Shown here: positions 1 through 16,763 of the stretch, piece after piece
Position numbering within the stretch: position 1 is the first letter of the stretch
How the letters are laid out: each line of letters begins with the position of its first letter
DNA from: Tatumella morbirosei
Lineage (GTDB): Bacteria; Pseudomonadota; Gammaproteobacteria; Enterobacterales; Enterobacteriaceae
Direction of reading: 5' to 3'
Length of the DNA: 64,000 nucleotides
NCBI RefSeq assembly: GCF_000757425.2
Contig: NZ_JPKR02000004.1
Span: 783,941-847,940 of the forward strand
Notes under the pieces: generated by a model
The model's input: only the letters and a program-made list of their open reading frames with translations
Database searches by the model: none
Told to the model about the DNA's origin: nothing
Program-made: the position numbers and the translations under genes

Positions 1-1
1 T

Positions 2-370
2 TATGCAGATTCGGGGCCGCGCAGGCTGATGGATCTTTTTTCGGTGAAATGGAGCAGTATGGTACTGCATGCTCTCTGGCACTGGCCTCAGGGCGCAGCC
101 AGAACAGGGGAGCTACAACGCAGTCTGCAGGGTATTTCCAAAAAAATGTTGTTTCAGACGTTGAAAGAACTGGAGATGCGTGGACTCATCCATCGGGAAG
201 TGTTTAGTGTTGTCCCGCCGAAAGTGGAGTATTCGTTGACTGCGCTGGGTAAAACAGTGGCAGAGCCTGTCGAACAGTTATATTTGTGGGGACTGGCTAA
301 TCAGCAGGCACTGGATGAAATGTCTGAAAACCTGCTGCGTAATACCCAACGTCATGCAGGGCAGGAGTAG
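2..370 (+). CDS. HxlR-family transcriptional regulator (5' truncated by window edge)
   Basis: Winged-helix DNA-binding regulator of the HxlR family. The frame is open to the window edge, and the residues before the first in-window ATG (base 29) read GPRRLMDLFSVKW, which matches the start of the HxlR domain, so the true start lies upstream. The rest is typical: helix-turn-helix with ISKKMLFQTLKELEMRGL as recognition region, then the wing VPPKVEYSLTALGK. HxlR proteins are small dimeric regulators, often sensing redox or electrophile stress. It converges on the DoxX gene to its right; whether it controls that gene is inference only. Confidence 0.85.
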   Translation, partial: YADSGPRRLMDLFSVKWSSMVLHALWHWPQGAARTGELQRSLQGISKKMLFQTLKELEMRGLIHREVFSVVPPKVEYSLTALGKTVAEPVEQLYLWGLANQQALDEMSENLLRNTQRHAGQE

Positions 371-380
371 GTGCCGGATA

Positions 381-409
381 AAAAAACTGCCGGCAGATTC
401 GCCGGCAGT
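381..409 (-). terminator. Rho-independent terminator of the DoxX gene
   Basis: A perfect 9-bp inverted repeat (ACTGCCGGC / GCCGGCAGT, 6-nt loop) is followed on the minus strand by a run of six T. It lies downstream of the minus-strand DoxX gene and just beyond the convergent HxlR gene. Confidence 0.75.
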
Positions 410-488
410 CAATGACAACAACTGATGACACTGTCAATATTTCCTGTTGGACACAGACTGGCAGGAAATTTTTGGGTAATAACAATAG

Positions 489-908
489 TTACTGGCGGGA
501 GATACTGTATTTACCCGCGCCGAGCAGCATAATGATCAGACCGCCAAAGAAATAAAGGGCTTCAGTTTCCAACGCCCAGGCTCCCACGTCGGTAGTTTTG
601 AAGAAGTTACCCCCCACCACCAGTACCACCGCAAATACCAGGTTAATGGCATATACCAGCCCGGCGACGCGGGTCCAGACGCCCAGGATAATTAATAACG
701 GTGCCGCGATTTCGCCAATGTAAGCACCATAGGCTACAAACCCTGGTAAGCCATGGGCCGCCAACATCGGTTTTATCCAGTCGACCCCATGTACCAGTTT
801 AAAACTGCCGTGAAACAGCATCAGCAAGCCAAACACCAGGCGCAACAGGAGTTTGGCAAAATCAGGATGATCTACAGCACGATCAAAACCAGTAATCAGC
901 TTATTCAT
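489..908 (-). CDS. DoxX family inner-membrane protein
   Basis: 139-residue DoxX-family protein with about four hydrophobic membrane segments (roughly residues 18-37, 58-77, 82-100 and 115-133). The family signature region LVFGLLMLFHGSFKLVHG is near the N-terminus. Members are quinone-related or redox-linked membrane proteins of poorly defined function, commonly under HxlR- or MarR-type regulators; here an HxlR gene converges on it from the left. The start is supported by GGGGAATTTTTA just before the ATG. No finer function can be assigned from sequence. Confidence 0.85.
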   Translation of the reverse strand: MNKLITGFDRAVDHPDFAKLLLRLVFGLLMLFHGSFKLVHGVDWIKPMLAAHGLPGFVAYGAYIGEIAAPLLIILGVWTRVAGLVYAINLVFAVVLVVGGNFFKTTDVGAWALETEALYFFGGLIIMLLGAGKYSISRQ

Positions 909-1218
909 TAAAAATTCCCCGTTTAAAAGGCGTAAGGTACGTTAAAAGCTCTTAAAACATCACCGGTATTTTTTGAAAGAAAACATCAAAAATTTAGAGT
1001 GGTAATTTTTATTTTTGCGCATCGCAGGCTATCCTGTCGGGCAGTCCGGAGAGATGATGCTCTGCGACGAAGCCCCTCTTTAAATAACGAGGGGATTTCA
1101 CCGCTGAGGAGCATTATTAGCAGTAAACGTAGTCTCTGGCAGGCAGTCAGAGGATCACGGATATAAAGAGATTTAAGGGGCCAGCATGGCCCCTCTGAAT
1201 GGCTTTGAGCTCAGCAGA
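909..1218. other. Intergenic region; AKR terminator, no gene seen
   Basis: About 310 bases between the DoxX start and the aldo/keto reductase stop. It is AT-rich near 950-1015, likely promoter territory for the minus-strand DoxX gene. A hairpin at 1176-1194 (AGGGGCCA, loop, TGGCCCCT) followed on the minus strand by TAAATCTCTTT is a probable terminator for the aldo/keto reductase. A second small hairpin, CCCCTC/GAGGGG, lies near 1075-1096. No credible coding frame was found. Confidence 0.6.
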
Positions 1219-2172
1219 CTATTGGCTGACGGTATCCAGTAGTGATAACTGTTGAGGTGTCAGCGAAAGCTGCAAAGCTTTGGCAAAGCTTTCGACCTGA
1301 CTGATGCTGGTGGCACTGGCAATCGGTGCCGTAACGCCTTCGCGTGCAATCAGCCAGGCCAGTGCAACCTCAGCCGGCTTGACATTATGTTCTTCTGCCA
1401 CGCTGGTCAGGGTATCCACAATTTTAAAGCCACGTGGATTCAGGTATTTACTGATTCCTGAACCGCGTTTGCTTTGTTGTAAATCGTCCTGTTGGCGATA
1501 TTTTCCGGTCAGAAAACCCGATGCCAGGCTGTAATAGGTCACAACACCAATATTTTTCTTAATACACAGATCGCGCAGTGGGCCATCAAAACTGCTGCGA
1601 TCATATAAGTTATACTCCGGCTGTAGCACCTGATAGGCCGGTAGTGAGTGTTGAGCGGCAACATTAAGGGCATCAGACAATTGGGTGGCATCCAGATTGG
1701 AGGCACCTACTGCACGAATTTTTCCTTCTGCCAACAGGGTTTTATAGGCTTCCAGCGTCTCTTCGTAGGGAGTTTCAGGGTCCGGCCAGTGGGAAAAGTA
1801 GAGATCGATATAATCGGTGTTCAGACGGCGTAAGGAATCTTCTACTGCCTGGATGATCCATTTTTTAGAAAGTCCTTTATGGCCTTCAATCCCTAAATCT
1901 GCACCGACTTTGGTGAATAATTTTATCTGCTCACGGCGGCCCGGGTGGGCTTTCAGCCAGCGACCGATGATGGTTTCGGATTCTCCCCCCTGGTTACCTT
2001 CAGCCCATCGGGAATAAACGTCGGCAGTATCGATAGTATCAAAACCGTGATCGATAAAAGCATCCAGTATTTTAAAACTGGTTGGCTCATCAATGGTCCA
2101 GCCGAACACATTGCCGCCAAACACTAGTGGGGTGATGGACAAATCAGTCTGCCCGAGAAGTCGTTTAGTCAT
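1219..2172 (-). CDS. Aldo/keto reductase family oxidoreductase
   Basis: NADPH-dependent aldo/keto reductase, a TIM-barrel fold of about 317 residues. Visible family features are FDTIDTADVY (catalytic Asp and Tyr), LFTKVG (catalytic Lys) and the His-containing strand DLYFSHWPDP, followed by GASN and a late YSLASGFLTGKY segment. It resembles the AKR group acting on sugars, aldehydes or dehydrated metabolites; the substrate is unknown. I prefer the ATG at 2172 over an ATG eight codons upstream because AGGAG sits about 10 nt before it and MTKRLLGQTDLSITPL is the usual N-terminus of the family. It has its own terminator and appears monocistronic. Confidence 0.9.
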   Translation of the reverse strand: MTKRLLGQTDLSITPLVFGGNVFGWTIDEPTSFKILDAFIDHGFDTIDTADVYSRWAEGNQGGESETIIGRWLKAHPGRREQIKLFTKVGADLGIEGHKGLSKKWIIQAVEDSLRRLNTDYIDLYFSHWPDPETPYEETLEAYKTLLAEGKIRAVGASNLDATQLSDALNVAAQHSLPAYQVLQPEYNLYDRSSFDGPLRDLCIKKNIGVVTYYSLASGFLTGKYRQQDDLQQSKRGSGISKYLNPRGFKIVDTLTSVAEEHNVKPAEVALAWLIAREGVTAPIASATSISQVESFAKALQLSLTPQQLSLLDTVSQ

Positions 2173-2468
2173 CTCTGAAATTCTCCTGATAGTCATACAT
2201 AGTCAGTCACTGACAGCGACTCAGCCTGATATTTACTGTATCCGCTCAGCGGCGGGATTTTCTGAAGACACTCCTTAGCATAACGTGACTTTTGCTACCT
2301 GGCAGAACCAATGTTGCGAAATAACCTGAAAATGCCTCAACTTCTGACGGTCAAAAATGTTCAAAACAGATACACTAAAAGAGAAGAAACACTGCCAGCC
2401 CCTGAAAAGACTGGCTTGTGACGAATAGTGCATAGCAAAAAATAATCTCCGGGAGTTTATCAGGACGC

Positions 2469-2795
2469 ATGTTGTTACTAAAAACTGGTTTGTTATTTGT
2501 ACTGACTGCCGTCGCTGAAATCGTCGGATGTTGGTTTCCGTATCTGGTATTACGTGAACATAAGAGCCCCTGGCTACTGCTGCCCGGGCTGTTCAGTCTG
2601 ATGATATTCGCCTGGCTACTTACGTTTCATCCGACCGGAGCAGGCAGGACCTATGCGGCTTACGGCGGGGTTTATATTTGCGTTGCTCTGGGATGGTTAA
2701 GAATTGTCGAAGGAATTGTGCTGACCCGCTGGGATATCGCTGGTGGCCTGGTGGCACTTGCAGGGATGCTGATCATTGTCTGTCAGCCATCCTAA
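2469..2795 (+). CDS. ynfA: UPF0060 membrane protein YnfA
   Basis: 108-residue inner-membrane protein with four hydrophobic helices, the same length as E. coli YnfA. Diagnostic stretches are [27 protein letters not shown] and [14 protein letters not shown]. It is an SMR-like small multidrug-transport-related family whose role is not firmly established. A ribosome-binding site (GGGAGTTTATCAGGACGC) precedes the ATG. It stands alone in the same orientation as the shikimate-dehydrogenase-like gene 90 bases downstream. Confidence 0.93.
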
Positions 2796-2885
2796 AGAGT
2801 CACCGTTTCCGGTGCAATGGCAAATCTGCGCGGTCTGTTATACTCAGGTGAGGCCCTGAATTCTATTATTCACGGAGAAAGGAAT

Positions 2886-3692
2886 ATGTCATCTGTTGAG
2901 TCTGTGAGTGGGTTAACACGATTATTGGCGATTATCGGTGACCCTATTGCCAGGGTCAGGGCTCCACAGTTAATCAACCGGGAGCTGATTTCTCAGCAGC
3001 GCGAAAATGTGCTGATGATTCCTTTGCATGTTGCCGCTGACGGACTCAGGGAGACACTCGAAGGGCTACGGCATTGTCAGAACTTTTCCGGGGCAGTGAT
3101 TACTATGCCGCATAAACGTGCGGTCATCGATCTGTTGGATGATATTTCGCCCGAGGCTCAACTGGCGGGGGCTTGTAATGTGATTAAACGGCTTCCTGAC
3201 GGAAAATTAAGCGGTACCCTGTATGACGGTGAAGGATTTGTTGCTGGGTTGCAGTTGCGGGGATACGAGGTTGCCGGTAAGCGGGTCTATCTGGCAGGTG
3301 CTGGAGGCGCAGCCAGTGCTATTGCTCATGCGCTGGCGAGTCATGGTGTCACCGAGCTTATTATATACAATCGTTCAGAACCTGCGGTGCTGGAACTGGC
3401 GGCGAACCTGGCCCGTCATCATCCGGGGTTAGTGGTTATCCATGGCACCCATAGCCCTGCCCATTGCGATATTGTGATAAATGCGACACCGGTCGGTATG
3501 GGTGAAGATACAGAGCAGGCATTCTCGTTGCAACATTTAGCCCCGGGTACTCTGGTGTGCGACATTATTATTTACCCGGAGAAAACGCCATTGTTGCTGG
3601 CTGCTGAACAGGCCGGACTGCCGGTTCATACCGGGGAGGCCATGCTGTCGGCCCAAATTTCTCTGATGCTTAAATTTATGCTGGAGTCCTGA
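2886..3692 (+). CDS. Shikimate dehydrogenase-like (AroE/YdiB family) oxidoreductase
   Basis: 268-residue member of the shikimate/quinate dehydrogenase family. The N-terminal substrate domain contains AIIGDPIARVRAPQLIN and ITMPHK (the catalytic Lys), followed by ACNVIK. The nucleotide domain has GAGGAASAIAHAL (Rossmann glycine motif) and INATPVGM. The usual NTDG motif reads LYDGEGF, so the Asn-Thr of true AroE is replaced; this suggests a paralog with altered substrate preference rather than the housekeeping shikimate dehydrogenase. I chose ATG 2886 because GGAGAAAGG precedes it and upstream residues look noncoding. Exact substrate is unknown. Confidence 0.88.
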   Translation: MSSVESVSGLTRLLAIIGDPIARVRAPQLINRELISQQRENVLMIPLHVAADGLRETLEGLRHCQNFSGAVITMPHKRAVIDLLDDISPEAQLAGACNVIKRLPDGKLSGTLYDGEGFVAGLQLRGYEVAGKRVYLAGAGGAASAIAHALASHGVTELIIYNRSEPAVLELAANLARHHPGLVVIHGTHSPAHCDIVINATPVGMGEDTEQAFSLQHLAPGTLVCDIIIYPEKTPLLLAAEQAGLPVHTGEAMLSAQISLMLKFMLES

Positions 3693-4181
3693 CTCTAATT
3701 TTTCACCCTGTTTATCTGAGAATACCTGAAGGCAGGATCCTGACTTTTAGGGGCCTGTCATTTTTGGTTCTGCTGCTTATAGCAGGTATAAGTATTTACT
3801 TATATATCGCTAAATGGACTCCGTATTTCCAAATGTCCGTTTATTGCAGTATCTCCTGTCTGTGGGTTTTTAATTAATTCCGACCTTTGTTTACTATGAC
3901 ATTTTTTTATTATTTTGTTCTCCCCCCTGGCGATATTTGGCAGTCGCATTTATTTGAGGGGCGATGGGGATAATAATTTTTTCCTCTGGATAACCGGGGC
4001 ATTTTTTTTCGTGGATCTGACAATAAATTTCGTACTTTCCCTGCAGGCAATATTTGGATGAAAGTAGTTACAGCCGCAAAGTTTCTGCGGATGTTACCGG
4101 GGAAGTAATGATCTGCCCCCTTGAGCTACCCCCCGACAGAAAAATGTTATTCCACGGCAATTGTCTCAGCAGGAGAGTCTT
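3693..4181. other. AT-rich intergenic region before the binding-protein gene
   Basis: 489 bases with no convincing gene. It has many T-rich runs and a hydrophobic open stretch near 3740-3870 that lacks a usable start codon and ribosome-binding site, so I do not call it. The 3' end carries the AGGAGA ribosome-binding site of the periplasmic binding protein (4171-4176). The promoter of that gene is expected here but no strong hexamer pair stands out. Confidence 0.5.
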
Positions 4182-5018
4182 ATGAACGTAAATCATTCGT
4201 TGTTCTCAGCACGGTATCTAAAAGCAGCGTTAGGTTTAGGATTGCTGACTTTAGTCAGCCAGGCGAATGCTGACTTTCTGAAACCAGGGGTAATCACCGC
4301 CGGTTCAGATATTACTTTTGCGCCCTACGAATATATGCTGAACGGAAAGCCTGCCGGATTCGATATCGAGATGCTGAAGGGTATCGCTGCGTCCTTAGGA
4401 AAAACCTCAGTCAATGTGGATACCCGTTTTCCCAATTTGATTCCGGGACTGCAAGGTAAACGTTTCGATATTACTAACTCTTCAATGTATATCACGGCAG
4501 AACGCCTGAAAGTCATTGATATGATTCCTTACCTGAAAACCGGTGAGAAGATTGTGACTTTGTCAGACAGTCAATATAAGCCTGAAGATCCTGCCGAAAT
4601 GTGTGGTCATAAAATTGGTACTATGGCGGGTACCTCTTTCCTGCAAGGCTTGATGAAATTCTCTCAGGACTCCTGTGTAGCTAAAGGCAAACCGGCCATC
4701 ACCATTAGCGAATACCCGACTGACCCTCAGGTGACCCAGGCATTGCTGTCCAAGGCGGTAGAAGCACAGATTACCGATGTTGCAGTGGCACAGGGTGTCG
4801 TTGAGCGGCTTAAAGGTCGGGTGGTTATCACCTCGGACAAATTGCTTTATCCGGTTCTGATTGGATTCGGGGTGCGTAAAGATGATCCGGTAGTGAAAAA
4901 AGCGATGGAAGAAGGGTTAAGTAAATTCAGTAAGACGGCAGAGTACAAGCAACTATTTGAAAAATATCATTTTACTCCGGTGACCGCTGAAGATATTAAA
5001 ACGATTGAAGCCAGCTAA
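4182..5018 (+). CDS. ABC transporter periplasmic substrate-binding protein (amino-acid type, family 3)
   Basis: 278-residue secreted binding protein. The signal peptide ends near VSQANA, and the mature protein begins with FLKPGVITAGSDITFAPYEY, the entry strand of family 3 solute-binding proteins. Further marks are GKPAGFDIEMLKGIAASLG, SSMYITAERLKVIDM, and a C-terminal GFGVRKDDPVVKKAMEEG. No permease or ATPase gene is adjacent, so it is an orphan in this window and must dock with a transporter encoded elsewhere. The start at 4182 is preferred over 4161 because of AGGAGA spaced five bases upstream. It lies 124 bases before a PhyH-family dioxygenase on the same strand; a shared substrate, for instance an amino-acid-like compound, is inference. 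Confidence 0.88.
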   Translation: MNVNHSLFSARYLKAALGLGLLTLVSQANADFLKPGVITAGSDITFAPYEYMLNGKPAGFDIEMLKGIAASLGKTSVNVDTRFPNLIPGLQGKRFDITNSSMYITAERLKVIDMIPYLKTGEKIVTLSDSQYKPEDPAEMCGHKIGTMAGTSFLQGLMKFSQDSCVAKGKPAITISEYPTDPQVTQALLSKAVEAQITDVAVAQGVVERLKGRVVITSDKLLYPVLIGFGVRKDDPVVKKAMEEGLSKFSKTAEYKQLFEKYHFTPVTAEDIKTIEAS

Positions 5019-5142
5019 TTTAATTTCCGCACCAGCAAAGGTTTAACGTCAGTCACTCCTGCCAGCGTTAAACCTGCTGAATGCATCAGTTTAATCGCCG
5101 TGGTGGTAAGGCAGGTAGCTCTGCGGCAGTGAAGAGGCAGTT

Positions 5143-6006
5143 ATGATTGAACAATGGCAGGTCGATCAGTTTCATGAGCAGGGCGTACTGGTAGTAAATC
5201 AGGTATTTTCAGCTGAAGAGATTGATGCACTACAGACGGTATTTGCCGCCTGGGCTGAAGAGAGTCGTCAGCATAGCAGTGCCTATGGCGAAACGATCGA
5301 CGGGCGTCCGCGCTTTGATGTTGACAGCGATCACTCAGCAGATCATCCTTCCTTACGCAGGATTGCCTCGCCCACAGAAATATCAGGACTCTATTATCAG
5401 GCGGCTTGCCAGTCGCGGATGAGCGAGATTGCAGCACAGTTGATTGGCCCCGGAGTACGTTTTCACCACAGTAAAATTAATTCTAAATTACCCGGCACCA
5501 AAACCGAGGTGAAATGGCACCAGGATTTTCTGTTTACCCCGCATACCAATGATGACCTGGTCACGGCCTTACTGATGGTCAGTGAAGTTACGGCAGATAA
5601 TGGCCCGTTGCAGGTCATCCCGGGCAGTCACAAGGGGCCCCTACATAACCACTGGCAGGCAGGTAAATTTACCGGTGCCGTGGATGAGCAGGTGGTGCAA
5701 GAACTGTGTGCAGAGCCGGTAGCCTGCCTGGGACCTGCGGGTAGCGTCTGCTTTATGCATACCCGTCTGTTACATGCTTCGGCACCCAATAACAGCCCAT
5801 TGCCGCGGACTTTGTTTATTACTGTCTATTCAGCCGAAGATGCATTACCGCTGGCTGAAAATCCGTTGCCTTCACAACATGAACGTCAGGTCGTTGCAGG
5901 TGAAGAGAGTGGGAACATTCGTTGTGTGGACAATCAGTTCCGTTTGCCACAAAAGCCTAAAGGTGCTTCATTTTTTGTGCAGCAGGCCGGAGAAGACCCG
6001 CGTTGA
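5143..6006 (+). CDS. Phytanoyl-CoA dioxygenase (PhyH) family Fe(II)/2-oxoglutarate oxygenase
   Basis: 287-residue cytosolic protein of the PhyH superfamily. The iron facial triad is visible as H126-x-D128 in KWHQDFLF and H211 in MHTRLLHAS, with R222 following as the likely 2-oxoglutarate ligand. PGSHKGPL is a typical PhyH loop. Such enzymes hydroxylate diverse small molecules such as ectoine, amino-acid derivatives and phosphonates; the substrate cannot be read from sequence. GAAGAGGCAG precedes the ATG. The gene follows an orphan periplasmic amino-acid-type binding protein, suggesting an uptake-and-hydroxylation pair (inference). A GC-rich hairpin near 6043-6063 may end the transcript. Confidence 0.85.
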   Translation: MIEQWQVDQFHEQGVLVVNQVFSAEEIDALQTVFAAWAEESRQHSSAYGETIDGRPRFDVDSDHSADHPSLRRIASPTEISGLYYQAACQSRMSEIAAQLIGPGVRFHHSKINSKLPGTKTEVKWHQDFLFTPHTNDDLVTALLMVSEVTADNGPLQVIPGSHKGPLHNHWQAGKFTGAVDEQVVQELCAEPVACLGPAGSVCFMHTRLLHASAPNNSPLPRTLFITVYSAEDALPLAENPLPSQHERQVVAGEESGNIRCVDNQFRLPQKPKGASFFVQQAGEDPR

Positions 6007-6165
6007 TCGCTGTTAACCAAATGTTTTTCTGAAATTTTACGTCGCCGGGGCGCAGGTCCCCGGCACAACCATTGTGTTTTTCGGTATTTTGGTTCAGGGT
6101 GGAGCGACAGATTTGTATTCAGCGCTTGCCGGTATGGCCGGCAGAACCTTTTACCGGAATGACTG

Positions 6166-6726
6166 ATGAATAAAACGTTGACCAGTGTGTTGTTTGCCAG
6201 CCTGAGCATAGCGGTAGCCTCTGCCGCCGTAGCGGCACCTTTCACTTTATCTTCCCCTGATTTTACTTCCGGTCATTTTATGCCGTCGGCAATGGGGGGA
6301 AATTTTCCCCATATCAAAAGCTGCCACGGACAAAATATTTCTCCGCCACTGAGCTGGGAAAATCCGCCAGCAGCCACACAAAGTTTTGCACTCATTATTC
6401 AGGATGCGGAAGGGCGAAACGGATTGGGGGCGACCCATTTAGTTGCTTATGGTATTCCGGCGACTCAGCATCAGTTTCTCAGAACAGCTCTGGCTAATGG
6501 CCAGGGTTTTACTGGCGGGAAAAATAGCTTTGGAAAACTGGCGTATAATGGCCCTTGTCCTCCGACGAATGGTGATACCCACACTTACACCTTTACTCTG
6601 ATAGCCACAAATTTACCGGCGGACAGTTTGCCGGAAGGCCTGACTCAGGCGGAACTGTTGCAAAAACTGGAAGGGCATGCACTGGGGGCAGCGGGGATGT
6701 CGGGATTATTTTCAGGTAAAAAATAG
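6166..6726 (+). CDS. Periplasmic YbhB/YbcL-type PEBP (Raf kinase inhibitor-like) protein
   Basis: 186 residues with a clear N-terminal signal peptide ending at AVASAAVAA, then a phosphatidylethanolamine-binding-protein fold: FTSGHFMPSAMGG, SPPLSWENPPAATQSFALI, QDAEG and GYNGPCPPTNGDTHTYTFTL-like ligand-pocket strands. This matches the YbcL/YbhB family; the exported form resembles YbcL. In uropathogenic E. coli a YbcL variant dampens neutrophil migration, but no role is established for most members. The gene is convergent with the Csu pilus locus. Confidence 0.9.
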   Translation: MNKTLTSVLFASLSIAVASAAVAAPFTLSSPDFTSGHFMPSAMGGNFPHIKSCHGQNISPPLSWENPPAATQSFALIIQDAEGRNGLGATHLVAYGIPATQHQFLRTALANGQGFTGGKNSFGKLAYNGPCPPTNGDTHTYTFTLIATNLPADSLPEGLTQAELLQKLEGHALGAAGMSGLFSGKK

Positions 6727-6749
6727 TCTGCCCGCATAAACGGGCAGAC
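6720..6749 (-). terminator. Terminator at the end of the Csu locus
   Basis: A 9-bp stem GTCTGCCCG / CGGGCAGAC is followed on the minus strand by ACTATTTTTT. A second hairpin ACGGAGG/CCTCCGT lies at 6768-6788, directly after the stop of the last pilus subunit. Together they form a probable tandem terminator for the minus-strand operon; the first may also serve the convergent PEBP gene. Confidence 0.65.
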
Positions 6750-6793
6750 CGGGGATGACTACCGGTTACGGAGGACTGATGCCTCCGTCACAC

Positions 6794-7315
6794 TTAGTAA
6801 GTAATCGTCATGGTGACGGTATCAGAGTAGGCACCTACTGAAGGCAGGGTGCTACCGGCAGGAATACGACCATAAATATCGTAAGACTGCAGGGTACCCG
6901 TCCCTGTACCGGACAGCGCAGTAGTGTTAACCCCAATCGCCGTGGTGTAGCCGCTGTCAGAGTATAGGTTATAAGGGATGTATTCGGTATCGCCCCCTTC
7001 CATCTGACGCTGTGTTGTTCCGCTGATATTAGAACCACCATCCATTGCCAGAGTCCATGCAGTACCGTTGTTACACAATACTCCGACCTGGCTTCCGCCG
7101 GTAGAAGAGGTGTTGGCATCAGTATTTGCGGCGAAAGAAGACACAGTACCAAAGTTCAGTACCGCGTTAGTGGTTGTCCCGGTAGAACTGGTATTGACTG
7201 TACAGCTTGCGGCAACGGTGGCCTCCACTGTTAAAGTACCACTATTTGTTGCTGCTTCGACTGCAGGGACTGCGAAAACAGTGGCAGCTGCAGCTGTTAT
7301 TAATAATTTACGCAT
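6794..7315 (-). CDS. Csu-type fimbrial major subunit, spore coat U domain (copy 1)
   Basis: 173-residue secreted pilin of the SCPU family (archaic chaperone-usher pili, CsuA/B-like). The signal peptide MRKLLITAAAATVFAVPAVEA is followed by a Thr/Ser/Gly-rich beta domain with the conserved Cys pair, VLNFGTV, YIPYNLYSD and a C-terminal donor-strand-like DTVTMTITY. I moved the start to ATG 7315 because CGAGG lies five bases upstream and the signal peptide begins there; the longer frame runs into the remnant of the preceding gene. It is roughly 70% identical by eye to the gene at 7709-8227, showing a tandem duplication. Its assembly genes upstream appear broken. Confidence 0.88.
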   Translation of the reverse strand: MRKLLITAAAATVFAVPAVEAATNSGTLTVEATVAASCTVNTSSTGTTTNAVLNFGTVSSFAANTDANTSSTGGSQVGVLCNNGTAWTLAMDGGSNISGTTQRQMEGGDTEYIPYNLYSDSGYTTAIGVNTTALSGTGTGTLQSYDIYGRIPAGSTLPSVGAYSDTVTMTITY

Positions 7316-7329
7316 AAAAACCTCGATTA

Positions 7330-7470
7330 TCAGTATGTTACGGTTACCACGACCGTATCGGTGTAACTGCCAGGCGTGGTCGGGATTTAACTCCCTTAGG
7401 TTTACGTCCATAAACGATAAACGTCTGGTTAGCCCCTGAGCCGGTGAATGTTACGCCTCAACTTCCCCCG
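7330..7470 (-). pseudogene. 3' remnant of a CsuE-like two-domain pilus subunit
   Basis: Reading the minus strand gives GS-stop-GVTFTGSGANQTFIVYG, then RKPKGV, a one-base deletion, then TTPGSYTDTVVVTVTY and a stop. This aligns with the C-terminus of the intact neighbour at 8241-9317 (GSGGVTSSGTGANQTFVVYG and PGSYTDTVVVTVTY). An in-frame TGA (7458-7460) and the frameshift near 7387 prove it is not functional. It ends 14 bases before copy 1 of the major subunit, the same spacing as between the intact subunit gene and copy 2, so the unit 'csuE tail plus major subunit' was duplicated. Confidence 0.8.
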
Positions 7471-7708
7471 GAAAATTTATCGTTACCCGGGTATTTCCCG
7501 CACAGTGGCAAGTGCGGAATCTGGTACTGAGTTTGCTTGCAAATATCGGCAGCATAACCCCCTGCCAGTCACGCTGTGAGTAGTGCTTAGCGACTACACA
7601 AAGCGGAATGGCGCTATCTTTTACAGACACAGCGGGCTGGATACTGCCTGCTGAACGACAGAAGTGGCTTTGAACGTTATTTGCGTTCGCCTCAACACCC
7701 GGCTCTGA
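7455..7708 (-). other. Open but startless stretch after pilus subunit copy 2
   Basis: Directly after the TAA of the subunit at 7709, the same minus-strand frame stays open for about 84 codons until a stop near 7455. The translation (containing SVKDSAIPLCVVAKHYSQRD and GNTRVTINFPGE) has no start codon with a ribosome-binding site and no family I recognise. It may be debris of a deleted gene between the duplicated subunits, or chance. Confidence 0.3.
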
Positions 7709-8227
7709 TTAATAAGTCAGTGTCATAGTTACTGTGTCGGTATAAGCCCCTGGTGTCGCCAGAGTACTGCCGGCAGGAATACGCCCGTAAATATCGTATG
7801 ACTGCAGAGCTCCGGTGCCGGTACCGCTCAGTGCGGTAGTATTAATCCCGATGGCAACGGTACGGGCACTGTCTGAATACAGGTTATATGGCACATACTC
7901 CGTGTTTCCGCCCAGCATCCGGCGCTGTGTGCCACTGACATTCGATCCGCCATTCATCGCTAATGTCCAGCCGGTACCGTTACTGCACAGCACAGTCACT
8001 TTGCTACCACCGGTAGACGAAGTACTGGCATCAATATTGGCCGCCATTGAAGTGACGGTACCGAAATTGAGGACAGCAGTGGTAGTGGTCCCGGTGGTAC
8101 TGGTGTTTACAGCGCAACTGGCCGCCAGCGTTGCCGAAACAGTCAGGCTGCCGGTCACAGTGGCGGCCTCAGTAGCAGGTATGGCTATCAGGCTTGTAAC
8201 AGTCGCTGCAATTAATAGCTTACGCAT
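7709..8227 (-). CDS. Csu-type fimbrial major subunit, spore coat U domain (copy 2)
   Basis: 172-residue SCPU-domain pilin with signal peptide (MRKLLIAATVTSLIAIPATEA), VLNFGTV, YVPYNLYSD, SYDIYGRIPAGST and the C-terminal strand DTVTMTLTY. It is a paralog of the gene at 6794-7315 with the same architecture. The start follows the stop of the two-domain subunit by 13 bases, so they are co-transcribed. In archaic chaperone-usher systems such as Acinetobacter Csu, subunits of this kind polymerise into thin pili that mediate attachment to abiotic surfaces. Function here depends on whether the chaperone and usher are expressed. Confidence 0.88.
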   Translation of the reverse strand: MRKLLIAATVTSLIAIPATEAATVTGSLTVSATLAASCAVNTSTTGTTTTAVLNFGTVTSMAANIDASTSSTGGSKVTVLCSNGTGWTLAMNGGSNVSGTQRRMLGGNTEYVPYNLYSDSARTVAIGINTTALSGTGTGALQSYDIYGRIPAGSTLATPGAYTDTVTMTLTY

Positions 8228-8240
8228 TTGTTTTCCCCGG

Positions 8241-9317
8241 TCAGTAAGTGACTGTGACGACTACCGTATCGGTATAAGATCCGGGCACCGTCGGGAGGGT
8301 GACTCCCTTTGGTATCTGCCCGTAAACCACAAAGGTTTGATTAGCTCCGGTGCCCGATGATGTCACACCACCGCTGCCACCGGTCGCGGTGGTTCCTCCG
8401 GTGGCATCCCAGACACTGGAGTATGTCGAATCCTTATAAAGCTGATAGGGCATCAGATAACTGCCATAAGCCATCCGACGGTAGCTGCCAGAGATACGGT
8501 TATTCCCGTCACCCAGATAGATGGTATAAGCCGTGCCGTAATTGCACTTGGTGACTACCGCACCGGTGGCATTATGGTTTGTCAGTGCGGTGCCAATGTC
8601 AGTAATGGTGCCAAACGCAACAGTACTGGTGGACACCAGCGAACAAACACTGGGAACCACTATGTTAAAGGTGAGTACCTGAGTACCAGAGTCCCAGCCA
8701 CCACCGGAGGCTCCCTCACAAACAGAGCTGCTGTTGGCCTGCATATCCACGTAAAGGCTGACGGTGGTGGTATAGGTTCCCGGCGGAAAAAAGGTGGTTG
8801 AGGCCGGTGCCGTTATGGTGACTGTACTGGCAAGGTTTTTGGTACCGCTCACCGTCGTGGTTGTTGCAGGGCCGTAATAAGTTCCGGAGACTGCGCTGGC
8901 GGCAGTTACCGCTCCACCTGCCGCAGCATACGTGGTGTAGGAGATCGCGCTTCCATTAATCGTGTTAGTCGTGCCGGTAAACGTTGCCCGGATACAAATA
9001 TACGGGCTGGTTGAAGCAGTGGTCGTACTGCCGTTATAACAGGCCCAGTTGCCGGTAATCGTCATCGACGATGCGGAAGATATTGTGGCTGATGTCAGCG
9101 TCTGCGTCTGTGAAGTTCCCCCGGTGGAGGTTGCCGTGAACGTGCATGTAGCCCAGGCTTTACCCGGAAGAAACAAGCCTGCCAGTAGCAATAAACCAAA
9201 AACTGCTAACCGGAACAGGGGGGAAGCAGTGGCTTTGCAGACAAATGACTTCAGAGCACCCGTTAACGGTGCAGAATCAAATCTGCTATAAGCCGGATAA
9301 TTAAGGGTTACTGACAT
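8241..9317 (-). CDS. Two-domain Csu-type subunit, probable tip adhesin (CsuE-like)
   Basis: 358 residues with a hydrophobic export segment at about 37-56 (FRLAVFGLLLLAGLFLPGKAWA ends in a signal-peptidase-like AWA) followed by two SCPU domains, roughly residues 57-215 and 220-358. The second domain holds PSVCSLVSTSTVAFGTI, LMPYQLYKDS and a C-terminal SYTDTVVVTVTY. A two-domain SCPU protein directly downstream of the usher is the CsuE-type tip adhesin arrangement. The ATG overlaps the usher stop by about 10 bases. The N-terminal extension before the hydrophobic segment is longer than a normal signal peptide, but no better start with a ribosome-binding site is visible. Confidence 0.8.
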   Translation of the reverse strand: MSVTLNYPAYSRFDSAPLTGALKSFVCKATASPLFRLAVFGLLLLAGLFLPGKAWATCTFTATSTGGTSQTQTLTSATISSASSMTITGNWACYNGSTTTASTSPYICIRATFTGTTNTINGSAISYTTYAAAGGAVTAASAVSGTYYGPATTTTVSGTKNLASTVTITAPASTTFFPPGTYTTTVSLYVDMQANSSSVCEGASGGGWDSGTQVLTFNIVVPSVCSLVSTSTVAFGTITDIGTALTNHNATGAVVTKCNYGTAYTIYLGDGNNRISGSYRRMAYGSYLMPYQLYKDSTYSSVWDATGGTTATGGSGGVTSSGTGANQTFVVYGQIPKGVTLPTVPGSYTDTVVVTVTY

Positions 9318-11742
9318 ACATAAGGCCCTATTTTAACTGTAGATGAATTTGCAGAATCGTAACTAAAACGGGTGGTACAGGTCCCTTTATCCAGCAGATT
9401 GACTGTCAGGGTGTTATTACGTTTAAGTTGTTGCAAATAAACTTCACCGCTGTAGCCCGTCATGCTTTCGCTGCTGTCGTTTAGCATCACTTTATAGCCA
9501 GGAGGCAGTGGCTGATGGTTGATGTCAACCAACAGCACTGTTGCTGAAACAACCTTTTCGCTTTTGAAATTCACTAAGCTTCCTTGCTGATACGCCGAGA
9601 TAGCGGTTTGCTCTGTATCCTGTGTCTGCCAGTCAATCGGCAGGTTGGTGGTATCCAGGAAAATATGGTTGGCGATATAAGGTGTCATATCGGTAATCAG
9701 GAAATGACCTGAACTGTCCGCCGTCCCTAAATCCACCCCGCCGTTAAGAATATGTGTACCGGGGCCCGCGTTTTTAACCAGTGCGAAACTCTGACCCACT
9801 TCGTTTGCAGGATAGACACCCATATCAGCAAATATCAGGGCACCGGTGGTCGATACCGTGGTTTGTGTCTGGCTGCCGTACTGCTGTACGCTGGCGTTAT
9901 AAGTGCCGTAACGGCCACGGAAATTACCGTACAGTTGGTAATCATTATCTCCACCCTCATACTGAGTGGCAGAGGCACCCCAGGATCCGGTATTAATCCC
10001 CGAATCAGCAATACTGTTAATTTGTTCGGTGTAGCCATTACGGCCATTATCACGACTGACAGAAGAAGAAATATTGTATTTATTATCAAAGTTATAGGTC
10101 AGTACGATATAACCACCGGTATCATTCCCTGAAAGATTTTTATACAGGTTGGCCGAAATATTCAGGTTTGGGATAATCCCGGTATTTACGTTAAACGAAA
10201 CAAGATTATAACGACTACCTGAATAAACTAACCGGTTGAAGTAAGTACCAAAGGTCCAGCCCAGAAAAGGAGAGTAGTTAATGCCCGCCCGGGTGATTTC
10301 ATTAGCCTGTGAAGTATAGGTGATAGCCGTATATTCGTCCTCATCGACATTTCTCTGGTATTTCTCCTGGTAAATTAAATTAGAAACTCGTGCGAGGTCA
10401 TAATAATTGCTGTTTGATTTCTGATAACTGGAGTTAAAGGTAATATTGTCAGAGATGCGACCATCAAGGCTGGCCTGACCCAGCATACCGCTCCTGTCTT
10501 TATAATGACTGCCTGCGGCGGCAAGGCTTAATACACCGTGGCCAAATAAACCCTGCGCAATACCAATACCACCATTGCTTAAGCCATTGGTGGTGCCCTG
10601 GCCATTAACTGTCAGTGTCGTGCTGTCAGATAAACCATATTTACTGGATGCTGAACCAAAGACCACTTTGTTGTCGTAGTCAGAGGATTCGGCATCGTAG
10701 TTAAACCGCGGAATACCAATATCCACAGAAAACTCATTAATCCCCTGACGTAACAGGTCCGGGGAGTAGTAATAGGCGTGGGTAGAGCTGACCTGCTGGC
10801 CGTTAGCGTCCTTCGTGACTATGGTGACATCATTACCGGAGACAAAAGGCAGGTTTTTAATGTCAAAAGGTCCTGAGGGGATATCCCCGGAATAGATCTT
10901 CTGCTGATCAACGAACAAATCGAGTGTCGAAGGAACAGCCGAAGACCCTGAAAACTGCGGCAGGGCAGTGGTGACGATATCCGAACGCTGTGAATAGGCA
11001 CTGGCCCACTGAAATCCAGCTACCCTGACGCTGGTGCCCCAGTTAACGGTATTAGTCGTGAAATCACCCAGCGTATAAGAACGTATTTTTTCAGGATCGA
11101 TATACTGCCAATACGAATCCAGCCGTACGGTACCTTCGGTGCCGTAATAAGATTTATTGTTATACACGCCGGAGGTGTAAAAGTTACCGACACCGGTATT
11201 CAACAATCCCTGCACACTGGCAGAGATAAAGTCGTCACTATTGTAGTGAGTGTTATACAGGCTGTAGTTAATGATAGCCGATGTCAGGGCATTTTTTTTC
11301 AGTAACTTGTAATTAGTCTCCGGGCCATTGTTCAGCGAGATTTGATAAGGTGTCAGCCTGGCGTCCGGGATATATAAATTCAGTATCTGATCGTCGGGGA
11401 CATAAACGGTTTTAACTCCGGGTAATTTGCTGACATCAACCCAGGGATTACCAGCCGGAATGTCCTTAAAGTTGAGGCGTAAACTCTTCAGGTCTTCGGC
11501 ACGAATTAAAAATGTTTTTTTTGCTGGTTGTACTTAACATTCACCAGGCTCTGAGTCGAAGCGTCATTTATTTTAATTAATAAATATAATGACATATCAC
11601 CGGATTGCTGCTGGCCGCCCGGTGGTATTGTGGGAATGTCATTTAAGCTATATACCTGAGACGCCATTACAACCCCTGAAGATAATGCTTCACAGGTGAA
11701 TAAAGTGCAGATAACGGCTTTTTTAGTGTTGCGCTTACTCAT
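9308..11742 (-). pseudogene. csuD: Csu-type outer-membrane usher, frameshifted
   Basis: Outer-membrane usher of about 811 residues split into two frames. The 5' part (11742 to about 11515) encodes a signal peptide and the beginning of the usher N-domain (SLYLLIKINDASTQSLVNVK); it then stops within QQKKHF. The 3' part continues FLIRAEDLKSLRLNF through the beta-barrel and plug (PFDIKNLPFVSGNDVTIVTKD, YYSPDLLRQGINEFSVDIG) and ends in two C-terminal domains with Cys. The break coincides with a run of eight A (11515-11522); nine would restore a continuous frame. It could be a real mutation, transcriptional slippage, or a homopolymer sequencing error. Confidence 0.82.
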
Positions 11743-11785
11743 GGTAGCTGCCGTTCCTTACTATCATCAAAATTTTATTTTTGCG

Positions 11786-12505
11786 CTAAAGGGTGCTCTT
11801 CTCAGGCTGTCGGTTAACTTTGTAAGTCACCTGATATTTATCCCCCGGAATATAAAATCCGCGAGCTATTGGATAGTTTTTATATGAATTTTGTAGGACA
11901 TATCCGTTAACGGTATTCACTGTCAGCCTGAGCTTTTTTTGGGTGTTTAGATTAGTTATCTCAACATCGGACAATAATGCATGGCGGGTACCATTATTGG
12001 TCATTATCAACCCTGAATCTGAAATCGAAGGCTGAACCTTTGGTATCGCGGAATCGTTTACGACAAACAGTGGCAATGAGTTCCTGATAAGAATACCGAC
12101 ACCAGTACCGATACTGCGTTTATCCTGAGGTTTTGGTAGTTCATCGATAATGACCCGATAACTCTGTTCAGCATTCACTTTCGCATCGTTGGTTCTGACG
12201 ACTCTGAAATTAAATGACCCGCCAGGCGGCAGAGTAATAAATGGCGGACTGGCGATAATGTCATCCGTATCCGTCAGATTATCGTTACCGTTAGACTGGG
12301 TCCACTTGAATACGCGCACCTGCAGATTACTCGTTTCATCAGACATATTAAACAATGTAATCAGGCTTGCCCGATCCTGAGACGCGATGTCCACAGTAAT
12401 AGGAGAAATACGAATCCCTCCCGCCTGACTGAAGAGAGGCTAGGTCAGTAATGAGAATGATGCTGGAATAATTATTTTTTTAATCAATGAGTTATATAAC
12501 TTCAT
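11786..12505 (-). pseudogene. csuC: Csu-type periplasmic pilus chaperone with in-frame amber codon
   Basis: PapD-like chaperone of 239 codons from ATG 12505. The signal peptide reads MKLYNSLIKKIIIPASFSLL-T, then TAG at codon 22 (bases 12440-12442), then PLFSQAGGIRISPITVDIAS in the same frame, so a single nonsense base change interrupts an otherwise intact gene. The mature domain shows RASLITLFNMSDE, RVFKWTQSNG, FITLPPGGSFNFRVVR, the YRVIIDELP strand and a C-terminal domain, all typical of archaic-pilus chaperones. Its order before the usher matches csuC-csuD. Without suppression or internal reinitiation no exported chaperone is made, so pili should not assemble. Confidence 0.85.
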
Positions 12506-13127
12506 TGCTGTGCTCAGTGTGTTGTTATTGAGTTAAATATAGAACACTATTTATGGTTTTCCATCAACTATTTATTATTTAGTTGTTAAGGTTTTGAAAA
12601 TAAATGATACATATTATGATAACCTGCTCTCATTTGTTTATTATTCCTTATATGTTGATTTGTGTGATATTTAGGTGTTTTATACTGAATTTATTGGTAT
12701 TTGTGGTTTTATAAACTAATTTGGTTTTTTTACTGATTCCTGAAATTAATTGATCTGATTAAAAATCAATCACTTTAGTAAGGGAGAGTAATAGTTTAAT
12801 TAACCTGATATTTAAAAGATGAAATTCCAGGCGGTGCAGGTTTTTTATGCTGGCTTTTGCATAGAGTTTCGTGTTGTTAATCTTGTTTGTTTGATAATTT
12901 TAAATTAATTATCTGTTGATAATTTTATCAACGGGGCACGAACTTTTGCATAACACGATTAAATGTAAGGTTATGGTGAAGATTAGTGTCTGCAGGAATA
13001 CTGGTTCGACCTTTACATAACTGTTGGCCGGAAAATTGCCGGCATCAGCTGCCATACTGATAATCTGTACTATTATCAGCTGTAATTGCTCAAAAGTCGT
13101 ATAACTGGCATCGCGGAAGGAGTGGTT
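12506..13127. other. Long AT-rich upstream region of the Csu locus and YafD-like gene
   Basis: About 620 bases without a gene, strongly AT-rich between 12520 and 12930, dominated by T/A runs. It separates the divergent Csu operon (minus) and EEP gene (plus) and must hold both promoters. Such composition is typical of H-NS-silenced fimbrial control regions (inference). Near its right end are a short GC hairpin (GCCGG/CCGGC, 13027-13042) and a perfect 8-bp inverted repeat (see next entry). Confidence 0.55.
13057..13079. repeat. Perfect 8-bp inverted repeat upstream of the YafD-like gene
   Basis: CTGATAAT, 7-nt spacer, ATTATCAG. It lies about 50 bases before the GTG start of the EEP-family gene. 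It could be an operator or an mRNA hairpin; no known regulator consensus is recognised. Confidence 0.45.
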
Positions 13128-14216
13128 GTGATCTATCTGGATTGTTTTTTAACTTTACTACTGATGCTGGTAAGTCTGGCATCTCTGTCACGTCATTCTG
13201 CCTGGTGGGTAAGGATCTGGGATTTTCCCAGGGTACAGCTGCTGGTAATTTCCGGGGGGCTGATTTTGATGCAATTCTACGTATGGCAAGATGCACCATT
13301 GCTTTGCGGAATCTTATTGATAATTACCTTACTATGTTTTGTTTATCATGGCTGGTGGGTATTGCCTTACACCGGTTGGGGTAAGAAGCAGGTCAGAGAT
13401 GCCAGCGGCTATATCAGACAACCTGGAATACGTCTGCTGGTGTCGAATGTTCTTACGCCAAACCGTGGCGCGGACAAACTCCTGAAACTGGTAAGTACTG
13501 AACGTCCGGATATTCTGGTGGCTGTGGAAACTGATTTGTGGTGGGAGCAGCAACTGAATGTGCTGGACGGAGATTATCCATACAGTCTTAAGTGCCCGAA
13601 AGATAACCTTTATGGCATGCATGTCTGGTCAAAACTCCCTCTGAGTGATGTACAAATTCAGTATCTGGTCGATGATGAAATTCCGTCAATGCATATGCTG
13701 GTAAAACTTAATGATGAGGTTTCAGTCCGCCTGCATTGTCTTCATCCTATGCCGCCAAGTCCTACTGAAAATGATGAGTCGACTGACAGAGATGCAGAAC
13801 TGGTGATGGTAGGGAAAAGTGTCGCAAATACCCGTCTGCCAACCATTGTCACAGGTGATTTGAATGATGTGGCATGGTCGGCCACCACTCGTTTGTTTCT
13901 TAAGCTCAGTGGCCTGTTAGATCCGCGCAGAGGCAGAGGGATGTTTTGCACTTTTCATGCCGGTTACCCGATTTTCCGCTGGCCCCTTGACCATGTGTTT
14001 CATAGTCAGGATTTTGTACTGGGTGCTCTTCGACGTCTGGAGAGTATCGGTTCCGATCATTACCCTTTTCTTGCCCATCTCATCTATTCACCAGAGAAAG
14101 GGGAGGAACAGCAAAGTCTCGAAAAGGCCCCTGAGGATGAGCAAATGGCCCGGGAGATTCTGGCACAGACTGATTCAGAAGTCTCTGCAGTTCATACGCC
14201 TGGTGAACGGTTTTAA
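13128..14216 (+). CDS. Endonuclease/exonuclease/phosphatase (EEP) family membrane protein, YafD-like
   Basis: About 362 residues. Three hydrophobic helices occupy residues 1-75, then a cytosolic or periplasmic EEP domain begins at GIRLLVSNVLTPNRGADKLL. Active-site landmarks are AVETDLWWEQ (metal-binding Glu), VTGDLNDVAWS (Asp/Asn), and the C-terminal WPLDHVFHS and GSDHYPFLAHL (Asp-His pair). Family members cleave phosphodiester bonds in nucleic acids or lipids; the substrate is unknown. I place the start at GTG 13128 because AAGGAG lies six bases upstream, instead of an upstream TTG. A hairpin shared with the convergent dehydrogenase ends it. Confidence 0.82.
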   Translation: MIYLDCFLTLLLMLVSLASLSRHSAWWVRIWDFPRVQLLVISGGLILMQFYVWQDAPLLCGILLIITLLCFVYHGWWVLPYTGWGKKQVRDASGYIRQPGIRLLVSNVLTPNRGADKLLKLVSTERPDILVAVETDLWWEQQLNVLDGDYPYSLKCPKDNLYGMHVWSKLPLSDVQIQYLVDDEIPSMHMLVKLNDEVSVRLHCLHPMPPSPTENDESTDRDAELVMVGKSVANTRLPTIVTGDLNDVAWSATTRLFLKLSGLLDPRRGRGMFCTFHAGYPIFRWPLDHVFHSQDFVLGALRRLESIGSDHYPFLAHLIYSPEKGEEQQSLEKAPEDEQMAREILAQTDSEVSAVHTPGERF

Positions 14217-14231
14217 TTTAGTTTCAAACAG

Positions 14232-14261
14232 GGTTTCAGCCAGTGTCAGCTGGCTGAAACC
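14232..14261. terminator. Bidirectional hairpin between convergent genes
   Basis: Perfect 12-bp stem GGTTTCAGCCAG / CTGGCTGAAACC with a 6-nt loop, placed between the convergent EEP and dehydrogenase stops. No strong T run follows, so it is a probable rather than certain terminator. Confidence 0.65.
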
Positions 14262-14286
14262 AGGATGAAATGTCCTATCCACCACC

Positions 14287-15366
14287 TCAGCGGCAAACAG
14301 GAATTTCATTCTCAGGCATACCGGCAATCCTGGCAGCAGCCACGATATCGTTCCAGCTTTGAATATCCAGAGGTATGCCCTCCCGCTGTCTGATTTCACG
14401 ATTCATAGCTTCCCATTCGCCCGGCACTTTAATTTGCTGATGACCGGCTTCAGGGGATTTTTTCACCCACTCGATAAAAGCTTCTGCTTCCTGTTCCATA
14501 TGTGGAGCCCCGAAAGCTTCAGGATTAATAATGACTGAGGTCATACAGTTGAATATTGCGTCATGGCTGGGTTGTAGTGTTTCAGTGTAGGTTGTCTGAC
14601 CACCGGAAAGTGCACCTCCCAGTATTTCGCACATGACTGCCAGGGCATAACCTTTATGGTGGCCGAAAGGCAACAGGGCACCATAAGGAGACTGATGCAT
14701 GACAGCAGGTTCGCGGGTGGGTTGTCCGGTGCTGTCAATCAGAGAACCTTCGCCCACCAGGACACCCTTGTTCCATGCCACTCTGGTTTTACCGAAGGCG
14801 ATAGCGCTGGTAGCAAAATCAAGCAACAGGGGTGGTTTGCCGGGTCTGGGGAAAATGGCACAGAAAGGATTGGTGCCGAAACGACGATCACTGCCACCAA
14901 ACGGAGCTACCATCGGGTCACCGGTGACATTAACAAAGTGAAATGATACCAGTCCATGTTCAGCACAGGCCTCCGCCCAATAACCGATGCGTCCGATATG
15001 GTGAGCGTTATGCAAACCGACGGCTGACATTCCAAATTTTCGGGCCCGGTCGATACCCGCGTCAATAGCCTGGCGGGCGGCAACCTGTCCGAATGCTGAC
15101 TGACCATCAAAGGTCAGAATAACACCGCTGTCTTTCACCAGGCGTGCTTTCTTATTGAGTTGCAGATGCCCCTGCTGTAAGGATCTCATATAAGAAGGGA
15201 CCATGCCTGCTCCGTGAGAGTCATGTCCGACAAGATTAGCGGAAATCAGATGGTCTGCAATGAGTTGTGCTTCTGTAGCTTCACTTCCCGCATATTGCCA
15301 AAGAGAAAAAATAAACTGGTGTAGTTCACTGGCTGAGATAACCACTTCATTTTCTGAGACTGACAT
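14287..15366 (-). CDS. hcxB: Malate/L-lactate dehydrogenase-family hydroxycarboxylate dehydrogenase B
   Basis: 359-residue NAD(P)-dependent oxidoreductase of the Ldh_2 (MDH/LDH) family. It aligns along its length with E. coli YbiC/HcxB (about 361 residues): ADHLISANLVGHDSHG, LHNAHHIGRIGYWAEAC, FGTNPFCAIFPRPG, LLLDFATSAIAFGKTRVAW and HHKGYALAVMCEILGGALSGG. HcxB interconverts 2-hydroxy and 2-oxo carboxylates such as hydroxyphenylpyruvate. The gene is monocistronic, with pagP diverging after a 419-base gap. The family assignment is firm, the exact ortholog slightly less so. Confidence 0.88.
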   Translation of the reverse strand: MSVSENEVVISASELHQFIFSLWQYAGSEATEAQLIADHLISANLVGHDSHGAGMVPSYMRSLQQGHLQLNKKARLVKDSGVILTFDGQSAFGQVAARQAIDAGIDRARKFGMSAVGLHNAHHIGRIGYWAEACAEHGLVSFHFVNVTGDPMVAPFGGSDRRFGTNPFCAIFPRPGKPPLLLDFATSAIAFGKTRVAWNKGVLVGEGSLIDSTGQPTREPAVMHQSPYGALLPFGHHKGYALAVMCEILGGALSGGQTTYTETLQPSHDAIFNCMTSVIINPEAFGAPHMEQEAEAFIEWVKKSPEAGHQQIKVPGEWEAMNREIRQREGIPLDIQSWNDIVAAARIAGMPENEIPVCR

Positions 15367-16358: not shown

Positions 16359-16507
16359 CTATCGTTGTTGTGCAAAAAGTGCCCTGTTGTGAAAAAATTG
16401 GGACATTTATCACTTTTTCTTTAAATGGCGCTGGACAAATTGCACCGGAATTGATGTACTGGATGCCGACACAGTTTAGTGTCCATTTTTCATGTAAAGG
16501 TAATAAG

Positions 16508-16717: not shown

Positions 16718-16735
16718 TTTTCAGTCAGAATCTCT

Positions 16736-16763
16736 AAAACCCGCCACTGGCGGGTTTTTTATT
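16736..16763 (+). terminator. cspE Rho-independent terminator
   Basis: Stem AAAACCCGCC / GGCGGGTTTT with a 3-nt loop and trailing T run, about 20 bases after the cspE stop. Confidence 0.9.

Follow-up and report, generated by a model that had tools for sequence, protein, structure and literature searches.

LAO, OccJ and ArgBP are solute-binding proteins (SBPs) that have the family 3 fold in common with the binding protein studied here, at 20–30% identity. Among Fe(II)/2-oxoglutarate enzymes of the PhyH fold, the trans-3/4-proline hydroxylase H11 and the leucine 5-hydroxylase GriE act on free amino acids, and the ectoine hydroxylase EctD belongs to the same superfamily. At the level of gene sets, genes for a RidA-type protein, DUF1028, an M20 enzyme and a flavoprotein are found elsewhere beside a Rieske oxygenase, an HpaB-type oxygenase or an LLM flavin enzyme. 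Our literature search found no paper using the term DUF1028 and none naming the RidA-DUF1028-M20-flavoprotein set, and the available excerpts of PMC4433059, PMC6449761, PMC5320631 and PMC13390433 hold no description of the cluster. The sole solved sequence relative of DUF1028 is a 'hypothetical protein'.

Here, we have analysed a stretch of 64,000 nucleotides from Tatumella morbirosei (the window; its genome is denoted G000), in which the genes for an SBP and a PhyH-family oxygenase lie on the same strand, 124 bp apart (Table 1). The SBP gene begins with the ATG at 4182, with CAGGAGAG immediately 5' of it, and its stop codon ends at 5018. Both proteins score above their Pfam cut-offs, which confirms the original prediction of a family 3 SBP directly upstream of PhyH. 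The complete triad predicted for the oxygenase is confirmed as well, since H126, D128 and H211, like R222, do not vary among the 53 aligned sequences (the window protein and 52 chosen out of the best 80 of 164 GTDB loci). We take H126, D128 and H211 to be the iron triad and R222 presumably to be the 2-oxoglutarate arginine; PhyH would presumably have 2-oxoglutarate-dependent oxygenase activity. Similarly, R108 and D199 of the SBP are invariant in all 35 aligned sequences (the window protein and 34 chosen out of the best 80 of 164 GTDB loci), and we take them to correspond to the residues that bind the carboxylate and amino groups in such proteins. A promoter scan of 3600–6300 gave no sigma-70-like site (3.5 expected), and for this reason we claim no promoter. 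Rfam returned no family at the gathering threshold in 2400–6800 of the window. The plasmid collection held no DNA match to the pair, and six of its records carry protein relatives of PhyH at 33–38% identity.

Table 1. Features in and around the SBP-PhyH pair (window coordinates)
Feature	Position	Strand	Basis
Shikimate-dehydrogenase-like (AroE-like) gene	2817-3692		under its NCBIfam cut-offs
Candidate regulatory element common to the C4 ABC operon, putative LysR-type operator	4001-4040	+	weight matrix, Tatumella block
Family 3 extracellular SBP	4182-5018	+	PF00497, 99.1 bits (cut-off 26.4)
Hairpin in the SBP-PhyH gap, 10-bp perfect arms, no T tract	5039-5075	+	arms 5039-5048 and 5066-5075; fold z -4.19
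PhyH-family Fe(II)/2-oxoglutarate oxygenase	5143-6006	+	PF05721, 104 bits (cut-off 22)
Chaperone-usher-type fimbrial genes	6794-12394	-	usher PF00577, PapD-type chaperone PF00345, SCPU-domain PF05229 (one scanned)

The AroE-like gene was considered as a pathway member and rejected: it adjoins the pair in all three Tatumella loci and in no other locus searched, L026 and L032 being one genome in this count. Relatives of this gene begin at the position equivalent to 2886. In G149, the closest relative of the window's genome, a further SBP gene (44% to that of the pair) followed by a carboxylesterase gene (PF00135) lies about 4.5 kb upstream of the pair (L122, 4159–6508).

The AlphaFold2 models have mean pLDDT values of 94.2 for PhyH and 85.8 for the SBP. 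They were compared with solved structures through Foldseek/VIA rows, which cover the listed families only and in which rows within 1 Z count as tied. Among the matches listed, the top PDB row of the PhyH model is GriE (Z 26.8, rmsd 2.4 over 236); H11 (Z 26.5, rmsd 2.3 over 234), MysH (Z 25.4, rmsd 2.2 over 221) and EctD (Z 24.8, rmsd 2.5 over 231) also match, and all four are enzymes on amino acids or amino-acid-derived small molecules. The top PDB row of the SBP model, again among the matches listed, is LAO (Z 23.6, rmsd 2.4 over 225), with OccJ at Z 22.4 (rmsd 3.1 over 232) and ArgBP at Z 21.3 (rmsd 4.3 over 225). That the ligand would be amino-acid-like, as had been predicted, is supported by these nearest solved folds among the matches listed, GriE and H11 for PhyH and LAO and OccJ for the SBP. 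At 20–29% identity, the likeness of PhyH to H11 and GriE is a fold match only. EctD is the best NCBIfam row for PhyH and was rejected as its identity on score, with 68.4 bits against the equivalog cut-off of 336.5 (TIGR02408); the stretch of EctD following the HxD motif also differs. Unlike LAO, OccJ and ArgBP, the window SBP is encoded with an oxygenase and apart from its likely transporter.

The association of the two genes is conserved across genomes. In a sample of 149 genomes of the family, PhyH is present in eight (E ≤ 1e-40), each with an SBP gene within about 170 bp. The gene order is SBP-PhyH in G000 and in Tatumella G098, and ABC-PhyH-SBP-aldolase in the other six; a cluster-type ABC gene adjoins PhyH in six of the eight. 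In the GTDB set, the best 80 of 164 relatives of PhyH, the SBP gene lies within 400 bp on the same strand in 62 loci (50 downstream, 12 upstream). The pairing of SBP and PhyH is beyond chance, and the adjacency, kept in two gene orders, supports the earlier proposal that the two proteins are functionally linked. A fused ABC permease-ATPase (at least 55% identity) is found in 59 of these best 80 of 164 loci, all 59 with an adjacent SBP. At least two of the genes for flavin oxidoreductase (FMO), RidA, DUF1028 and M20 occur in the fetched stretch at 60 of the 80 loci (best 80 of 164), all four at 48, and the full set of ABC, class II aldolase, LysR, FMO, RidA, DUF1028 and M20 at 43. PhyH sits between RidA and DUF1028 in L103, and the missing ABC beside the pair in L096 is uninformative because that contig begins just before its SBP. 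Loci L032, L043, L058 and L086 come from the same genomes as L026, L024, L021 and L022; they were left out of the trees and included in the count of 80, as were SBP matches that fell short of 600 bases or 200 residues.

PhyH stands without an adjacent relative of this SBP in 18 of the best 80 of 164 loci, which comprise five Halomonadaceae, Halotalea (L046) and twelve others, nine of these twelve alphaproteobacterial or Granulosicoccaceae. FMO, RidA and DUF1028 (in one locus M20 too) stand before PhyH in the five Halomonadaceae loci; in Halotalea none of FMO, RidA, DUF1028 and M20 is beside it. Three of the five Halomonadaceae loci were scanned further, and in each the ORF following PhyH encodes a family 3 SBP that has diverged beyond the tblastn threshold; there, SBP and PhyH are thus again linked, though the SBP is a different one.

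The identities of the cluster genes come from scans of the Pantoea ananatis cluster (L021), which encodes a fused ABC permease-ATPase, a class II aldolase (PRK07490, 437 bits against a cut-off of 260), a LysR-type regulator, a flavin-dependent oxidoreductase (the FMO) related to TIGR04046 (364 bits, under the cut-off of 498), a RidA-type protein, DUF1028 and an M20 enzyme. The M20 enzyme scores above the thresholds of both PRK07522 and TIGR01892, the model for acetylornithine deacetylase (398, cut-off 297.7), and by the cut-off rule of the latter model it may be a true acetylornithine deacetylase. Beside the Pantoea cluster lies a gene for a HalD-type (lysine-halogenase-like) Fe/2OG protein (L021, 17028–17801), seen in three loci, two of which are one genome. 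Type II dehydroquinase (AroQ) genes are found in or near 25 clusters, nearly all of them from Pseudomonas.

DUF1028 is present in 24 of the 149 family genomes, including all eight with PhyH (hypergeometric 1.5e-7, uncorrected for relatedness). In 16 of the 24 it occurs without PhyH (E ≤ 1e-40), and therefore the core enzymes do not need this PhyH; clusters without PhyH include those of L027, L029 and G152. The sets that carry Rieske, HpaB-type or LLM oxygenases are alike in their core enzymes and differ in their transporters, and here PhyH is found instead of those oxygenases. In Pseudosulfitobacter, Caballeronia and Paraburkholderia, Rieske proteins are encoded with RidA, DUF1028, M20 and the flavoprotein; in NCBIfam, the Rieske protein of Pseudosulfitobacter matches GbcA best, at 155.8 bits where the cut-off is 670. 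The gene hpbA (N-methyl-L-proline N-demethylase) adjoins the module in Paracoccus, and aspartate ammonia-lyase is near the core in three of eight stretches scanned from other taxa. Acinetobacter cluster loci carry a hydroxymethylglutathione dehydrogenase (seven loci, one scanned) and a TauD-family oxygenase (five loci, one scanned). Taken together, the neighbouring enzymes of the core give a hint of an N-compound that undergoes oxidative demethylation or ring opening.

The window SBP had been described as an orphan lacking permease and ATPase. At the pair itself this stands: the permease and ATPase that would make up an amino-acid ABC importer in one operon are not beside the SBP, and tblastn with the cluster's ABC protein (E 1e-15) found no cluster-type ABC gene in window 1–20000. 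The orphan status is not borne out, since contig C4 of the same genome (L028) encodes a fused ABC, together with an SBP, aldolase, 2-hydroxyacid dehydrogenase, LysR, M20, DUF1028 and RidA, and no PhyH. The C4 SBP is a paralogue of the window SBP (66% identity). FMO was not found in L028, and a relative of it (67%) is on contig C5 (L123, 3357–4628). Both the adjacency of the SBP and the presence of the other genes in the genome place the pair in the PhyH-SBP-ABC-aldolase/FMO-RidA-DUF1028-M20 cluster. It is likely that the permease-ATPase of the window SBP is encoded elsewhere in the genome and that the pair is a piece of this larger cluster.

The same arrangement in trans is seen in related genomes. 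The pair is present in three of six Tatumella genomes and a fused ABC at 87% identity or more in four; all three pair genomes carry the fused ABC elsewhere (88–100% identity), and the fourth ABC-bearing genome, G152, has the cluster with its SBP and without PhyH. The cluster of G098 has 63 bp between its ABC and aldolase genes, at the place where G000, G149 and G152 hold the SBP; of the 16 PF00497 matches in this genome none is on the cluster contig C30, and the single SBP match at E ≤ 1e-40 is the pair's own. The ABC gene of Snodgrassella (G153) is on its own on C9, among housekeeping-type genes and with no SBP beside it, SBP and PhyH are on C1, FMO-RidA-DUF1028-LysR-M20 are on C3, and none of nine PF00497 matches is on C9. 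Among seven genomes chosen for a PhyH locus short of core genes or ABC, DUF1028 is found elsewhere in six and is absent in one, and three have a fused ABC at 59–64% identity, of which the match in G155 holds two stop codons.

Other genes near the Tatumella cluster and other PhyH genes of G000 were noted. A dimethylargininase-like gene (under cut-off) and genes for a GABA permease and GABA transaminase-like proteins lie beside the cluster (L119, 14144–17875, in G098, and at the same place in L028, L120 and L121). G000 has a second PhyH (C4:1340186–1340815; L030, 9139–9966), relatives of which occur in stretches around the cluster in Klebsiella, Pluralibacter and Acinetobacter (nine loci, eight genomes); it may be a second pathway oxygenase, scattered likewise. 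The third PhyH of G000 (L031) was rejected as a pathway member: the loci that were searched hold no relative of it.

A tree of 86 SBP rows groups the SBPs of the pair first with that of the G113 cluster (98/82) and next with those of the Tatumella clusters (100/97); alongside these lies a clade of 53 SBPs linked to PhyH. In the PhyH tree, a single clade (100/99) holds the three Tatumella proteins, and finer placing is unsure because of long branches.

The region 5' of the pair has diverged in G098, relative to G000 and G149, save for a block that includes window 4001–4040 and is found in all three Tatumella pair loci. Its likeness to the upstream region of the ABC operon was spotted by eye in the Tatumella upstream alignment, and the weight-matrix test came after that. 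The matrix was built from eight 40-bp sites 5' of the ABC gene in non-Tatumella genera of the order (L021, L022, L023, L025, L034, L035, L050 and L063), anchored on the string AGTTTTTTT, so that the T-run was fixed by choice. The window site ranks first of 127,922 positions in the 64-kb window, and in their own loci the pair sites of G098 and G149 rank first of 35,924 and second of 37,924. Scores are 17.7–25 for the Tatumella ABC sites and 2.7 (window), 9.1 (G098) and -0.2 (G149) for the pair sites. When the T-run was removed, the window site was matched or beaten at 282 of 127,940 positions. Over 483,160 positions in 11 Tatumella stretches, the window's 2.7 is outscored by three unrelated positions (6.4, 4.1 and 3.8), by four positions upstream of RidA (3.4–5.7) and by known ABC and pair sites. 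A pattern derived from both G000 sites, with zero mismatches at these two by construction, finds no further site genome-wide when as many as 3 mismatches are allowed, and the reversed control finds none. When upstream regions were aligned pairwise, nine of 12 comparisons were no better than shuffles and three were equalled by 2 of 500 shuffles; one of these three better alignments, as shown, falls outside the 40-bp element.

From these comparisons we have moderate confidence in a 40-bp element common to the pair and the ABC operon, to which a LysR protein would bind. The weaker matches upstream of RidA (L028, 15264–15303, and the same place in L121, L119 and L120) are a possible third site of the regulon. 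No shared element was found at the SBP promoter of Snodgrassella. Repeats of 16–17 bp are common to the ABC and FMO/RidA upstream regions there, which we take to be a Neisseria-type repeat. The gap between SBP and PhyH in the window contains a hairpin, and hairpins are found at the corresponding place in G149 (z -3.29) and, with unrelated sequence, in G098 (z -5.34). A consensus scan found no terminator in the 124-bp gap, and the hairpin may set the ratio of SBP to PhyH.

We consider it likely that the pair is half of a split regulon for import in trans and oxidative catabolism of an amino-acid-like compound. We argue that the SBP would capture an amino-acid-like zwitterion in the periplasm and pass it to the fused permease-ATPase encoded in trans by the C4 cluster. 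Inside the cell, the compound would be degraded by RidA, DUF1028, the M20 deacylase, the class II aldolase and, in most relatives, the flavin oxidoreductase, and PhyH would supply an Fe(II)/2-oxoglutarate oxygenation step that is missing from the C4 cluster, at a pathway position that we can only infer. The LysR-type regulator of the cluster probably governs both loci through the common 40-bp element, and the hairpin may allow more SBP than oxygenase to be made. We favour the split regulon because the SBP adjoins PhyH in eight of eight family genomes and in 62 of the best 80 of 164 loci, because the three Tatumella pair genomes all have the fused ABC elsewhere, because cluster-type ABC genes stand without a neighbouring SBP in G098 and Snodgrassella, because DUF1028 is present in all eight PhyH-bearing family genomes, because the SBP tree groups the window SBP with those of ABC clusters, and because of the promoter element and the amino-acid-type folds. 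Several observations speak against it, however. As the C4 cluster has its own SBP, that of the pair might bind a different ligand or work with a different partner. The core can do without PhyH, as in 16 of the 24 DUF1028-bearing family genomes and in G152. The pairwise upstream alignments, the competing matrix scores, the lack of an element found in Snodgrassella and the 18 of 80 loci (best 80 of 164) without the SBP also count against it, as do the one genome without DUF1028 and the only three with a fused ABC at 59–64% among the seven chosen.

That the pair stands by itself in Tatumella and Snodgrassella would also fit a system of just two genes, in which the SBP delivers to a different amino-acid ABC transporter or acts as a sensor and PhyH hydroxylates that ligand alone. 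This would be compatible with the 30 PF00497 matches and 10 ABC-protein matches (E ≤ 1e-60) of G000 and with the SBP retained in the C4 cluster. Such a system is nevertheless unlikely, given that the pair genomes carry the cluster, that no SBP lies beside the cluster-type ABC in G098 and Snodgrassella, and that the pair has the 40-bp promoter element. It is quite possible, though short of probable, that the genes make up an undescribed pathway for degrading an amino-acid-like compound that is N-methylated or cyclic, with PhyH by RidA-DUF1028-M20 in the place of Rieske or flavin oxygenases; this pathway would be split in at least two lineages, Tatumella and Snodgrassella, and would occur in Pseudomonas, Acinetobacter, Klebsiella, Pantoea and marine Gammaproteobacteria. 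The ligand class itself, an N-methylated or cyclic amino-acid-like compound, we propose only tentatively, and PhyH may act on a later intermediate and not on the SBP's own ligand.

Two more specific substrates can be weighed on the same gene content. Homarine (N-methylpicolinate) is a serious candidate; a 2026 paper on a conserved homarine pathway (doi 10.1038/s41564-026-02313-7) is cited in PMC13390433. That the module is, or derives from, homarine catabolism, with PhyH replacing the Rieske oxygenase of other taxa, would agree with the Rieske-linked sets of Pseudosulfitobacter, Caballeronia and Paraburkholderia and with hpbA in Paracoccus. We consider this derivation fairly unlikely, since the amino-acid-binding fold and conserved residues of the SBP point to no pyridinium acid in particular and the module is found with other oxygenases as well. 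An N-methylated basic amino acid of the methyl-lysine or methyl-arginine type is more doubtful still. It is suggested by the LAO/ArgBP-like fold of the SBP, by the dimethylargininase-like gene that neighbours RidA in the cluster of Tatumella (204 bits, cut-off 450), and by the hydroxymethylglutathione dehydrogenase and TauD-family oxygenase of the Acinetobacter clusters, but none of the best 80 of 164 GTDB loci yielded this DDAH-like gene.

The pair provides a genetic handle on a common, unnamed catabolic cluster that includes DUF1028, a family of unknown function. It would also be an example of a 'lone' binding protein whose transporter is encoded elsewhere. As the cluster occurs in the type strain of Acinetobacter baylyi (L097), its substrate could be identified in a tractable species.
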